Shown here piece after piece: positions 5,831 to 22,667 of a stretch of DNA of 22,897 bases (the first letter of the stretch is position 1; every line of letters starts with the position of its first letter). The DNA is from a virus. The notes beneath the pieces were generated by a model. The model was not told the origin of the DNA. It saw nothing but the letters and a program-made list of their open reading frames with translations, and made no database searches. The stretch covers positions 1 through 22,897 of IMG/VR virus record IMGVR_UViG_3300020001_000009. One strand, written 5' to 3'. A program made the translations under genes and the position numbers.

Positions 5831-6660
5831 TTGTATAGTTGTTTAAATATATGTTTGATTGTTTGTACATTCCAACCATTACCTAAAACTACGTGACGTT
5901 GGTTAGTTGAAATCCCTTCTGTATAATTATCGGGAAGACCTTGTAATCGTTCTGCTTCGATAGGGAATAATTCGCGGGCCGTTTTCCAGGAGGTTGCTAT
6001 ATGGTTAGAACGTTGATCGCAGAGTAAACAATTAGCTTTCTGCTTTGCAGGATTGTTTTTAATCTGGCCAAAGTTATTAAAATTACATCTGTTTGTTAAA
6101 ATAGCATTACGGTCTAGTTTTATCCAAGGTTGTTGTAATACGGAAGAAAGAAATATTTTTTGATCAACAGGTTGTTGTACTAACCAGTTGCACCAATACA
6201 ACCTAAATCGTGTTTGTGCACTAACTAATGCTGATTGAATTTTAACAGGCTTAACATTCATGTATTTAGTTATAACAGCTTCGCTTTCTTTTTGCATTCT
6301 TACATTTTCAAGTAAAAAGTTTTTCGGTTTACATTCCTTTTTCAATCGGATATATTCATAAAATAGCTTAGAACCTGGATGATCAAAATTTTCCATCTTG
6401 CCTGTAAACGAAAAGCCTTGGCATGGACTACCGCCGATAAATAAATCAATTTTTGGAAAATGTTTTAACCACTTAATCCTTTGTATATCACCTAGTTGTA
6501 TAGTATTCGGAAAGTTTTTTTGCGTGATTTTAATTGATGGTAGATGAATTTCGCTTGCATAATAAGCCCTAACCGATATACCTAATTCCTTTAGAGCTTG
6601 CTGGCCACAGGAAATCCCGTCAAACAAAGAAAGTACTGTAATCGGTTTAATATTTTGCAT
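5827..6660 (-). CDS. DNMT3-like C5-cytosine DNA methyltransferase, 277 aa
   Basis: All core C5-methyltransferase motifs are present in order: motif I VLSLFDGISCGQQAL (9-23), motif IV GGSPCQGFS with catalytic C80, motif VI FLLENV with E118, motif VIII QTRFRLYW (149-156), and motifs IX-X ERLQGLPDNYT and LGNGWNV. The FDG-SCGQQALKELG start and the compact size are closer to DNMT3-type enzymes than to typical bacterial Dcm. The target-recognition stretch between motifs VIII and IX is short (about 70 residues). The start overlaps the polymerase stop by 14 nt, and the stop overlaps the ParB-like start (ATGA). The recognition site cannot be read here. Confidence 0.92.
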   Translation of the reverse strand: MQNIKPITVLSLFDGISCGQQALKELGISVRAYYASEIHLPSIKITQKNFPNTIQLGDIQRIKWLKHFPKIDLFIGGSPCQGFSFTGKMENFDHPGSKLFYEYIRLKKECKPKNFLLENVRMQKESEAVITKYMNVKPVKIQSALVSAQTRFRLYWCNWLVQQPVDQKIFLSSVLQQPWIKLDRNAILTNRCNFNNFGQIKNNPAKQKANCLLCDQRSNHIATSWKTARELFPIEAERLQGLPDNYTEGISTNQRHVVLGNGWNVQTIKHIFKQLYK

Positions 6661-19655: not shown

Positions 19656-20054
19656 ATGAAACCATACCTTAAATACCTGATCTTAGCCGCCGTTATCGTT
19701 ATCTTGTTTATCACGGTTTACTTCGTCGGCCGCCACCAAGGCAAAATATCAGCAATAGATAACATTATGATGGATAGCCTTAACCGGGATATAGCCAATC
19801 GGGATAATAGAATCAAAAAATCGGAACTAATCATTGAGAAGAAAAACGACACGATAAAAATGCTCCAAGCCAATATTGCCGTTACCGATGCACTTATGGC
19901 TAAGCGCGAACTAAAATCAAAACAAACCATTACCTATTATGAAACCCTACAGCATCGTTACGTTAATGTTACTGTGTCTCATTACGACCGCTTCATTTGG
20001 GCAAGATTTCCCGATTCTATATCCACGGTGGCAAAAAGAGGCAATCGTCCATGA
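19656..20054 (+). CDS. N-terminal-anchored coiled-coil protein, spanin-like (132 aa)
   Basis: Residues 5-24 are one strong membrane helix (YLKYLILAAVIVILFITVYF), followed by a long charged helix (IANRDNRIKKSELIIEKKND, then MLQANIAVTDALMAKREL). An inner-membrane anchor plus periplasmic coiled coil is the layout of an inner spanin (Rz-type). The last 116 nt overlap the next gene in another frame, as in Rz/Rz1 nests. The lysis genes lie just beyond, in the opposite direction. No sequence motif proves a spanin, so the call is by architecture. Confidence 0.5.
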   Translation: MKPYLKYLILAAVIVILFITVYFVGRHQGKISAIDNIMMDSLNRDIANRDNRIKKSELIIEKKNDTIKMLQANIAVTDALMAKRELKSKQTITYYETLQHRYVNVTVSHYDRFIWARFPDSISTVAKRGNRP

Positions 20055-20349
20055 CCTCATTACCGGCGACCGCTGTGATTCATTATTCAGTATTCAACAG
20101 CAATTAATGGCGGATCTCCAAAACAAGATTGCGGACCAAGCCGGCATAATCGTTCAACTCCATGACCAGACCGGAGAGTTCCAAAACATCAAAACGCAAT
20201 GGCTGGGCAAGCAGGTTGATTACCAGGGCGAAATCAAAATACTGGAGAAAAAAGTTAGGCGTCTGAATTTTAACGGGATTCTGAAAGATATTGGATTGGC
20301 GCTGGCCGCCATTGGGATTATTGCTGTTGTGGCTAAGCATGGGATTTAG
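19939..20349 (+). CDS. Exported coiled-coil protein overlapping the previous gene (136 aa)
   Basis: The first 21 residues are a signal peptide with a predicted cut after ASFG (MKPYSIVTLMLLCLITTASF then GQ). A helical segment follows (QQQLMADLQNKIADQAGIIV), and a C-terminal hydrophobic helix (about 113-131, DIGLALAAIGIIAVVAKHG) could anchor it. It is not a lipoprotein, unlike classical Rz1. Starting 116 nt inside the previous gene suggests the two work as a pair, perhaps a two-component envelope-disruption system. The function remains an inference. Confidence 0.5.
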   Translation: MKPYSIVTLMLLCLITTASFGQDFPILYPRWQKEAIVHDLITGDRCDSLFSIQQQLMADLQNKIADQAGIIVQLHDQTGEFQNIKTQWLGKQVDYQGEIKILEKKVRRLNFNGILKDIGLALAAIGIIAVVAKHGI

Positions 20350-20436: not shown

Positions 20437-20883
20437 CTATACTACATAACTCATAAAAAAATATATAGAGAACCCAAGCAGGAAAATCCAGAATTTCAGG
20501 AACAATATACCATACCATGGGAGCATGGTATATATCCTATCTGTCAAGGATTGCTTACCGTCAAGCCCTTCATCCACATACCACCAATTCAAACCGCGTA
20601 ATAAGTTAAGCGCGTAATCAAAAAATAAAACGAACACCCCAAACGATAGAATTAGTGGTTGGAAATAGAATTTTGTTGGGCCCAGCGCCCAATCAAATAT
20701 AGAAACAACAGCCATCATAACCCCCGTGAGTATTGTGTGTGCAGCGTGGTCAACTTCTTTTTTCTGGTTGACGATGGTATGGTAATCCCACCAAAGTCGT
20801 AACCCCAATGGGATAACGAGAAGAAGCATAGCCCAACGAAAACCAAAGTCAGATTGCATACCAAAAAAGATAAATGCTTTCAT
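20437..20883 (-). CDS. Four-helix integral membrane protein, holin candidate (148 aa)
   Basis: Hydrophobic stretches at about 17-33, 47-66, 72-92 and 121-146 predict four membrane helices with short loops. A DHAAHTILTG segment precedes helix 2, and a polar loop (VDEGLDGKQSLTDRIY) precedes the last. It lies 9 nt after the amidase gene on the same strand, where a holin or another lysis-cassette membrane protein would be expected. Four spans are more than in most holins, and no family is recognised, so holin is only a context-based suggestion. Confidence 0.6.
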   Translation of the reverse strand: MKAFIFFGMQSDFGFRWAMLLLVIPLGLRLWWDYHTIVNQKKEVDHAAHTILTGVMMAVVSIFDWALGPTKFYFQPLILSFGVFVLFFDYALNLLRGLNWWYVDEGLDGKQSLTDRIYTMLPWYGILFLKFWIFLLGFSIYFFMSYVV

Positions 20884-20892
20884 ACAATTTAG

Positions 20893-21486
20893 TTAAAGTA
20901 AAGGTAAGAAATTTACTTGCATAGACTCCAAAGTATTTCCTCCGAAAAAGTTAGTGCCCGGACAGCTTTTTGTAACCGGGTTAGGATATTTTTCCGGATC
21001 ATCAACCCATCTCGCGCCCGTAACTATATCGTAGAAATGATGATATACGATTGACTCCGTTGATGGCACTAATTTAAACTTTAACAGTAAAGCAGTATTC
21101 ATTTTGATGATCGTCTCCCGGTGGACATCCGTCATGTCATCCCCATCTATATCAAAATTTCCCAAATGCTCAATGCAGATTCCATATTGATTCGCGCCCT
21201 TGATTCCCGCTGGTATAGTATCAAATGGCCTGCCCAGTGCTATGGTTCCGTCTGGGAACGAAGTTAAATTCTGCGCTATTTGCGCAAATCCATTTTGCAT
21301 CTGAAATGCTTCCATGCTTTCCAGCCAATGGAAATGATCTGGTAACTTTTGCCAGCTCTCATAGTCGGGTTTCCATGTGTGATGCTGTTGGATTAATCCA
21401 ATCCTGCGTGTAACGTTTAACGTTGTTAACCACGTCTCGAAAGCCGGGAAATCAAATAGAATGAATTTACCTTTTACTGTTTTCAT
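20893..21486 (-). CDS. N-acetylmuramoyl-L-alanine amidase (Amidase_2, endolysin), 197 aa
   Basis: This is the likely cell-wall lysis enzyme, cutting the amide bond between N-acetylmuramic acid and L-alanine. Zinc-site residues can be followed in order: IQQHHTW (H35/H36), YGICIEHLGN (E106), IVYHHFYD (H149/H150) and KSCPGTNF (K173-x-C175, matching K128-x-C130 of T7 lysozyme). There is no signal peptide or separate wall-binding domain, so it needs a holin or spanin route. The neighbouring membrane genes agree with that. ATG at 21486. Confidence 0.85.
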   Translation of the reverse strand: MKTVKGKFILFDFPAFETWLTTLNVTRRIGLIQQHHTWKPDYESWQKLPDHFHWLESMEAFQMQNGFAQIAQNLTSFPDGTIALGRPFDTIPAGIKGANQYGICIEHLGNFDIDGDDMTDVHRETIIKMNTALLLKFKLVPSTESIVYHHFYDIVTGARWVDDPEKYPNPVTKSCPGTNFFGGNTLESMQVNFLPLL

Positions 21487-21535: not shown

Positions 21536-21904
21536 CTATTCACTTACCCTCAAAAAGTCTAGCACCTCGCTTACAATTCCCTGCACCCCGGCTTTCATTA
21601 CGTAACTATCTACCCCCGAGTTTCGAGCCAGATCCAGGTCCTCATCATCCGGTGGAAACTTAGACGAGTACAGCAGAAATGGAATATGTCTCTTTTTTTC
21701 TCCGTGCCTAATAAGTTTCGCGAGTTCAAAACCACTTATATTAGGCATATTAACATCCGATATGATCAATGAAAATTCAAAATCCCCCATCATCTTTAAT
21801 GCTTGTTGGCCGTTTGACGCACTCATGGTCTTGAACCCCTTTTGCCTGAAGTTCTCCTCCAAGAGCTTACGTTGCAACTCATTATCTTCTACGATTAACA
21901 TCAT
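21536..21904 (-). CDS. Stand-alone CheY-like response-regulator receiver (122 aa)
   Basis: This is a complete receiver domain with no output domain. The acidic pocket is E6-D7 (LIVEDNE), the phospho-acceptor is D50 (LIISDVNMPNISGFELA), the switch Ser is S80/S81 (FLLYSSK), and the conserved Lys is K104 (SYVMKAG). All residues needed for phosphorylation are present. The length equals CheY. It overlaps the upstream membrane/coiled-coil gene by 23 nt and precedes the amidase. A phage-borne receiver is unusual. It might intercept a host histidine-kinase signal, or it may be cargo acquired from the host. No kinase gene is in the window. Confidence 0.85.
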   Translation of the reverse strand: MMLIVEDNELQRKLLEENFRQKGFKTMSASNGQQALKMMGDFEFSLIISDVNMPNISGFELAKLIRHGEKKRHIPFLLYSSKFPPDDEDLDLARNSGVDSYVMKAGVQGIVSEVLDFLRVSE

Positions 21905-22139
21905 TTCCTGAGAATGCTTTTATCGCGTCTTGAATGTTATCCGCTATGGACTTGAGTTCTGTAATCTCGCTTTTGATGAAGTTGTCAAGCCTTTTTGTAA
22001 CTGAATTCATGCTTATGATTAATTTCTCTACATCTTTTTGCATCCCAGATATTTTTATAATTGAAAAACTTACCCACGACAGCCATCCAGCAAAAGCCAG
22101 TAAAGCTATACCGAAAACGAAATCAGTTGACGCCGGCAT
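21882..22139 (-). CDS. Membrane-anchored coiled-coil protein (85 aa)
   Basis: An N-terminal membrane helix (about 6-29, DFVFGIALLAFAGWLSWVSF) is followed by a charged helical region with heptad spacing (GMQKDVEKLIISMNSVTKRL, then SIADNIQDAIKAF). Its stop lies 23 nt inside the receiver gene. It could be a spanin or holin-associated protein. Its coupling to the receiver gene hints at a shared function, but it has no histidine-kinase motifs. Confidence 0.6.
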   Translation of the reverse strand: MPASTDFVFGIALLAFAGWLSWVSFSIIKISGMQKDVEKLIISMNSVTKRLDNFIKSEITELKSIADNIQDAIKAFSGNDVNRRR

Positions 22140-22142
22140 CCT

Positions 22143-22667
22143 TTATGGTACTTTAGGCGAATCAACAGTTGTTTTTGTTTCCGTTGTAACCGTTGTTGCT
22201 TCCTGTTGTTTTACTGGCGGCACGGATGACAAGCCTCCTTTAAATGCCAATGCCCAATCGAAAATATATCGTCCGAATACTTGGTAGGCAATTAACCCGG
22301 TAATGATATATAGCGCAATTACTTGCGTGTTTGAGCTATTCGTAAAAAAGGCAACACGGCCAATTATTGGTGGGAAAATAAGTATTGAATAAAATGTCAC
22401 TTGTTCCCCTCCCTCCCATGCTTCGTTTTTACCTGTCATTCTCAGACCCGCGATCATTTCTTTTTTGTAGTAAAGAAACAAAGCCCAAAAGAACAAAGTC
22501 ACCCCACCCCACATCAAAAGACTGTCAATCCGCTCAGGGTTTTTTGCCAGGTGAAAGAAATAACTTTCAAACACATTGAACTTTCCATGGGTGATATTTT
22601 GTACCCTTGCCATGGTGTCTACTGACTTATGAATTATTGAATCTGGCAATGTTTGAAATAAGGTCAT
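22143..22667 (-). CDS. Multi-span membrane protein (174 aa)
   Basis: Three hydrophobic spans are predicted (about 48-66 LLMWGGVTLFFWALFLYY, 92-110 and 115-135). A preceding soluble N-terminal part has ARVQNITHGKFNVFESYFFH, and the tail is a Thr/Val/Pro-rich flexible stretch. It lies 3 nt upstream of the coiled-coil membrane gene in the same operon. A holin or other lysis-cassette role is possible from context. No family is recognised. Confidence 0.6.
   Translation of the reverse strand: MTLFQTLPDSIIHKSVDTMARVQNITHGKFNVFESYFFHLAKNPERIDSLLMWGGVTLFFWALFLYYKKEMIAGLRMTGKNEAWEGGEQVTFYSILIFPPIIGRVAFFTNSSNTQVIALYIITGLIAYQVFGRYIFDWALAFKGGLSSVPPVKQQEATTVTTETKTTVDSPKVP

Follow-up and report, generated by a model that had tools for sequence, protein, structure and literature searches.

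A stand-alone receiver domain paired with a membrane coil in phage lysis cassettes, a candidate regulator of lysis timing

What does a complete receiver domain do in the lysis operon of a phage? The question is raised by the IMG/VR virus record IMGVR_UViG_3300020001_000009, which was analysed over 22,897 nucleotides (hereafter, the window). An initial sequence-only reading had noticed the receiver beside the endolysin gene, and had suggested that it could couple host two-component signalling to lysis timing or titrate phosphate from a host kinase. In the following, we examine the gene and its neighbours, their relatives, and the comparable loci of Alteromonas phages, and weigh the roles that such a protein could fulfil.

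The receiver gene and its lysis cassette

The gene located at 21536-21904 (-) codes for a protein of 122 residues and is the sole place in the record matching PF00072 (profile search, E 5.1e-18, 65.7 bits against a curated cut-off of 30.2). The match spans residues 3-105, which corresponds to the single-domain layout of the CheY/DivK type, and a Pfam scan of this receiver and of those of the phages H4/4 and R9Y2 detected neither a DNA-binding domain nor any other output domain. Alignment places E6 and D7 at the acidic pair, D50 at the phospho-Asp, S80 at the Ser/Thr and K104 at the Lys position, so that the complete active site first described is indeed present, at canonical positions. Not mentioned in that description is the residue following K104, an alanine (A105) where most receivers have a proline; this K-P pair is also absent or unaligned in 5 of 18 panel receivers, and is thus usual rather than strictly required. 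The AlphaFold model of the protein has a pLDDT of 90.6, and the structure-based search that had been advised, carried out with Foldseek, gave CheY4, RR468, and DivK as top matches, with TM-scores of about 0.75-0.87. The ORF is an intact stand-alone receiver, as originally observed.

Directly upstream, and sharing exactly 23 nt with the receiver gene, lies a gene (21882-22139 (-)) coding for an 85-residue helical membrane protein, referred to below as the coil. Hydropathy reveals a single N-terminal hydrophobic stretch, and a single-sequence AlphaFold model consists of one helix over residues 5-81 (pLDDT 81). The flanking charges favour a cytoplasmic tail and so lend no support to an Rz-like inner-membrane spanin (N-in, with a periplasmic helix). 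The window coil contains no His, and a conserved phospho-His was not found among the coils. PHROG matches for the coils are weak and restricted to those of L004 and L005, two related records in which coil genes occupy the matching place. On the other side, the gene for the endolysin (20893-21486 (-), 197 aa), recognised by Amidase_2 (PF01510, E 3.3e-8) and by PHROG lysis families, starts 49 nt past the receiver gene. The reported placement between a membrane-anchored helical protein and an amidase is therefore borne out by the ORF coordinates and the Amidase_2 match.

Further genes lie on both sides. The 174-aa multi-TM protein encoded at 22143-22667 (-), with two to three hydrophobic stretches and relatives in L001, L004, and L012, can be termed holin-like from its position and TM segments. 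After the endolysin gene comes that of a 148-aa protein with about three TM segments by hydropathy (20437-20883 (-)), whose position is occupied in the gene order of L004 by a 136-aa TM protein. Two overlapping ORFs in different frames on the plus strand (19656-20054 and 19939-20349 (+), 132 and 136 aa), the former with an N-terminal TM segment and a helical tail and the latter with a signal-peptide-like start, may code for an inner and an outer spanin; the two ORFs run towards the lysis cassette.

Selection, relatives and origin of the receiver

A megablast search of the window against 50,697 phage records returned zero matches. A close relative is L001 (IMG/VR 3300019877_000084), with an identical cassette layout and a receiver 98% identical to that of the window. 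The 22 nucleotide differences between the two receiver genes are distributed 4/1/17 over codon positions 1/2/3, giving a dN/dS of 0.033 (0.070 for the amidase), and the GC content of the gene resembles that of the phage. The receiver gene is under strong purifying selection.

IMG/VR scans with alignments of the amidase, the holin-like protein, proteins of 206 and 261 aa, and the receiver added only L004, L005, L010, L012, and L017. In L017 (3300010375_000019), which shares 49-58% identity with L001 in its structural proteins, the gene of a receiver (PF00072, 48.6 bits) is flanked by those of a one-TM helical protein and of an endolysin, with ATGA-type overlaps of 4 nt at both ends. This receiver shares 29% identity with that of the window and has lost the conserved Lys. 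Since the L017 endolysin is GH19-like (phrog_181) rather than of the Amidase_2 type, the receiver slot has persisted through an endolysin exchange. The earlier proposal that the receiver has been kept functional is thus supported both by the dN/dS value and by the matching slot in this diverged relative.

With regard to L004 and L005, their amidases are 61-65% identical to that of the window and a coil gene is present, but no receiver was found, and both lyse without one. PF00072 was likewise detected in 0 of 59 more distant records sharing a structural protein of roughly 1200 aa, for which IMG/VR holds >500 relatives, mostly at 25-31% identity. Whether the gene is conserved at the same lysis-side position, a question raised at the outset, thus receives a divided answer, positive for L001 and L017 and negative for L004, L005, and the 59 distant records. 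This distribution gives the receiver the appearance of an accessory acquired at the level of a clade, next to a pre-existing coil gene. Of note, L012 (IMGVR 3300021339_000085, 5858-6519) has the opposite gene order, with a TM-coil gene of 79 aa ahead of the holin-like gene; the C-terminal half of the latter is near-identical to that of the window, which suggests recombination within holin genes.

Concerning the origin of the receiver, no cellular gene exceeding about 36% full-length identity was found in plasmids, in phage records, or in one scan of 84,980 genomes, and a Sphingobium match reaches 45% over a shorter stretch (71% of the query). The genome scan constitutes weak evidence because its queries were two 7-residue patterns, which a moderately similar host gene could escape. 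In phylogenetic analysis, the Alteromonas-phage receivers cluster together (90/88, not starred), and those of window/L001 and of L017 lie among bacterial receivers. A single clade of all lysis receivers is disfavoured (AU p 0.07) without being rejected, the best tree requiring 3 changes; a clade uniting window, L001, and L017 is compatible with the data (p 0.36). More than one recruitment of receivers by phages is therefore likely, as judged from these trees.

Coil-receiver pairs in Alteromonas phages

Weak tblastn matches led to unrelated, cultured Alteromonas phages. In R9Y2, H4/4, XX1924, PB15, A5, V22, PT11-V19, and R22Y, a coil gene followed by a receiver gene occurs among the lysis genes or next to them. 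In H4/4 (Autographiviridae), gp42 to gp44 are the holin, the one-TM coil, and the receiver, followed by gp45 and the terminase, with 4-nt overlaps; the receiver of R8W shows 92% identity. R9Y2 has a one-TM coil, the receiver, and a GH108 endolysin, with 4-nt overlaps on both sides, and the receivers of R9Y1 and R9Y3 match at the same coordinates. An XhlA-like coil precedes the receiver in PB15, followed by an M15 endolysin and a holin-like gene, and in XX1924, followed by DUF5675 and a holin. In PB15 (KX982260), the annotation probably puts the beginning of the receiver gene 21 nt too far downstream (L129:3989-4010), since an ATG at L129:3989 restores the overlap with the coil stop seen in XX1924. 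The order is coil (gp10), receiver (gp11), spanin-like (gp12), 2-TM (gp13), and endolysin (gp14) in A5, and papain-like amidase, coil, receiver, spanin-like, 2-TM, and DUF5675-like gene in V22, while in PT11-V19 and R22Y the coil and receiver face holin-like and DUF5675-like genes on the opposite strand; the spanin-like, 2-TM, and DUF5675-like labels in these four phages come from reading the sequences and not from profile searches. Location in a lysis cassette is thus established in more than one phage lineage, namely, in the window, L001, L017, and the Alteromonas phages. The opinion that phages rarely carry complete receivers agrees with the wider viral group as sampled (0 of 59), but several Alteromonas phages have them.

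The location is not a general rule. In ct7ZZ929, a lone receiver ('rec', L124:227-613) lies beside a DNA polymerase gene, with no upstream coil and no adjoining lysis genes. Regulator-kinase pairs were found in prophiGD05-1 and probably also in Bhz63. Two of the unannotated top matches in INPHARED were inspected and rejected, since they carry bacterial-type multidomain proteins (in L107 a hybrid kinase, in L109 a protein with GGDEF), and the many other unannotated 'fecal', Listeria, and Staphylococcus records were excluded as evidence.

The constant element of these loci is the coil: in each of the seven annotated loci that we examined, the gene immediately preceding that of the receiver has the features of a one-TM, charged, helical protein. 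When coils are defined by a length not exceeding 130 aa, a single hydrophobic stretch close to either end, and a charged remainder poor in P and G, 8 of the 89 annotated genes around seven receivers qualify, and seven of these eight lie directly upstream of the receiver; the count describes these loci and should not be read as a p-value, because the definition was set post hoc and not every phage is an independent case. In most cases, the flanking charges predict that the helical part is cytoplasmic, alongside the receiver; for the L017 coil the prediction is ambiguous, and the coils of A5 and V22 have a weak hydrophobic stretch. Across groups, the coils have no sequence homology, and the TM segment is at the opposite end in some. 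No description of a receiver-coil lysis module was found in the open-access literature, the scope of our search; stand-alone phage receivers were already known, and it is their pairing with a membrane coil at lysis cassettes that appears to be undescribed.

The active site is more variable than this arrangement. The acidic pair, Asp, Ser, and Lys are all kept in the window, L001, R9Y2, H4/4, XX1924, PB15, V22, and A5, although K-A or K-S stands in place of K-P in the window, XX1924, and PB15. Degenerate sites occur in L017, without the Lys, and in PT11-V19 and R22Y, without the phospho-Asp; in these two schitoviruses, the Asp is replaced by T or P, and the proteins (L130:3998-4450 and L132:4001-4465, respectively) are pseudo-receivers following a TM-coil gene. 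Because of these losses, phosphotransfer cannot be a function common to all. An input of phosphate is plausible for the intact sites, without being universal, and the residues lost in L017, PT11-V19, and R22Y show that a receiver can be retained in the module in its absence.

A proposed role in lysis timing and comparison with known systems

Given the intact fold, the purifying selection, the slot retained in L017, and the recurrence of the coil-receiver order, we propose that the receiver is a dedicated lysis-timing regulator acting with the membrane coil encoded just upstream, a reading to which we give an even chance and whose mechanism we infer. Speaking against it are L004 and L005, which lyse with no receiver, the degenerate active sites of three phages, the coils themselves, which differ between groups in sequence and in part in the position of the TM segment, and the lone receiver of ct7ZZ929. 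The coupling to lysis timing suggested by the sequence-only reading gains from the recurrence of the pair in other lysis regions, while its host-signalling and phosphate-titration part is weakened by the sites of L017, PT11-V19, and R22Y. The overlapping genes would ensure that coil and receiver are made together. Receivers bind the helical dimers of histidine kinases, and the phage receiver could dock in a similar manner on the coil, at its helical portion in the cytoplasm. Docking would hold or release the coil, which may in turn tune holin triggering as LysF1b does (see below). In receivers with an intact site, phosphate supplied by host kinases or by small phosphodonors could shift the affinity, and burst time could therefore read the host state; with a degenerate site, the receiver would act as a phosphate-blind partner.

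On a broader scale, we tentatively advance, as possible rather than probable, that unrelated phage families repeatedly recruited a bacterial receiver, paired with a one-TM cytoplasmic coil, as an input gating holin triggering, so that lysis time answers host phospho-signalling, and that some lineages later became phosphate-blind. Taken together, the observations suggest that a switch borrowed from bacteria helps some viruses to time the burst of their host. Outside the lysis inhibition of T4 and N4, little is known of how phages match the time of burst to the condition of the host, and a recurrent receiver and membrane coil by holin and endolysin genes represents a concrete candidate for an input device, directly testable since cultured Alteromonas phages carry both.

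Other roles have to be considered. The receiver could be a decoy or mimic that drains or imitates host kinase signals, such as those for motility or envelope stress, late in infection, the lysis operon being then merely a late operon. The intact active site in the window and most other phages would suit such a role, and the phage protein PIT4 binds several host kinases (PMC10714779); we nevertheless regard it as unlikely, given the constant pairing with a membrane coil instead of scattered late positions, the degenerate sites of L017, PT11-V19, and R22Y, and the failure to find a close host receiver to mimic in plasmids, phage records, and the genome scan. That the receiver fold is a mere coil-binding module, a structural adaptor with no phosphate switch in any of these phages, agrees with the loss of Lys or Asp in three of them and the K-A/K-S changes in three others, but leaves eight intact sites to explain and seems to us quite improbable. 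A transcriptional or metabolic regulator, PhoB-like or encoded by an auxiliary metabolic gene, has been annotated in R8W, V22, and A5 (PMC8228385, PMC7289586, PMC10579305); the receivers of the window, H4/4, and R9Y2 have no output domain, in particular no C-terminal DNA-binding domain, which leads us to reject a PhoB/OmpR-type transcription factor and makes this role as a whole very improbable. Finally, a recent passenger useless to the phage, which would be expected to be absent from relatives and near-identical to one host gene, and which the absences from L004, L005, and the 59 distant records might recall, is scarcely credible and was rejected in view of the dN/dS value, the phage-like GC, the L017 slot kept at 29% identity, and the lack of a close cellular gene in what was searched.

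Returning to the proposed lysis-timing regulator, its closest counterparts in structure are CheY, DivK, and Thermotoga RR468, which the window receiver resembles in fold, active-site residues, and the absence of an output domain; it differs from them in being phage-encoded in a lysis cassette and in carrying K-A instead of K-P. The R8W gene has been published as PhoB, involved in low-phosphate adaptation (PMC8228385), whereas the H4/4 'PhoB / DNA-binding response regulator' has a one-TM coil on one side and a TM protein on the other, in the neighbourhood of the holin. Similarly, the V22 and A5 gene was described as CheY-like and as an auxiliary gene belonging to the host-recognition module (PMC7289586, PMC10579305), but the gene of this stand-alone receiver directly follows that of a weakly hydrophobic coil and is itself followed by genes for spanin-like and holin-like proteins; these receivers are only about 15-27% identical to that of the window. 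If the proposal is right, annotations as PhoB, hybrid kinase, or host-recognition auxiliary gene would have to be corrected.

As for lysis control itself, a cytoplasmic signal has been proposed to gate the holin in the lysis inhibition of phage N4 (gp62/gp63), where the 'receiver domain' is a pinholin region and not a CheY-type fold (PMC12642591). Nearer to the coil is LysF1b of mycobacteriophages, a one-TM, N-out/C-in protein with a charged helical cytoplasmic tail, encoded in the lysis cassette; no receiver is mentioned in that system (PMC13056207). Deletion of LysF1b alters lysis timing, and recovery mutations map to its 2-TM partner (PMC13056207). Because proteins of this type can control lysis timing, the coil may, by analogy, be the effector and the receiver its cytoplasmic regulator.
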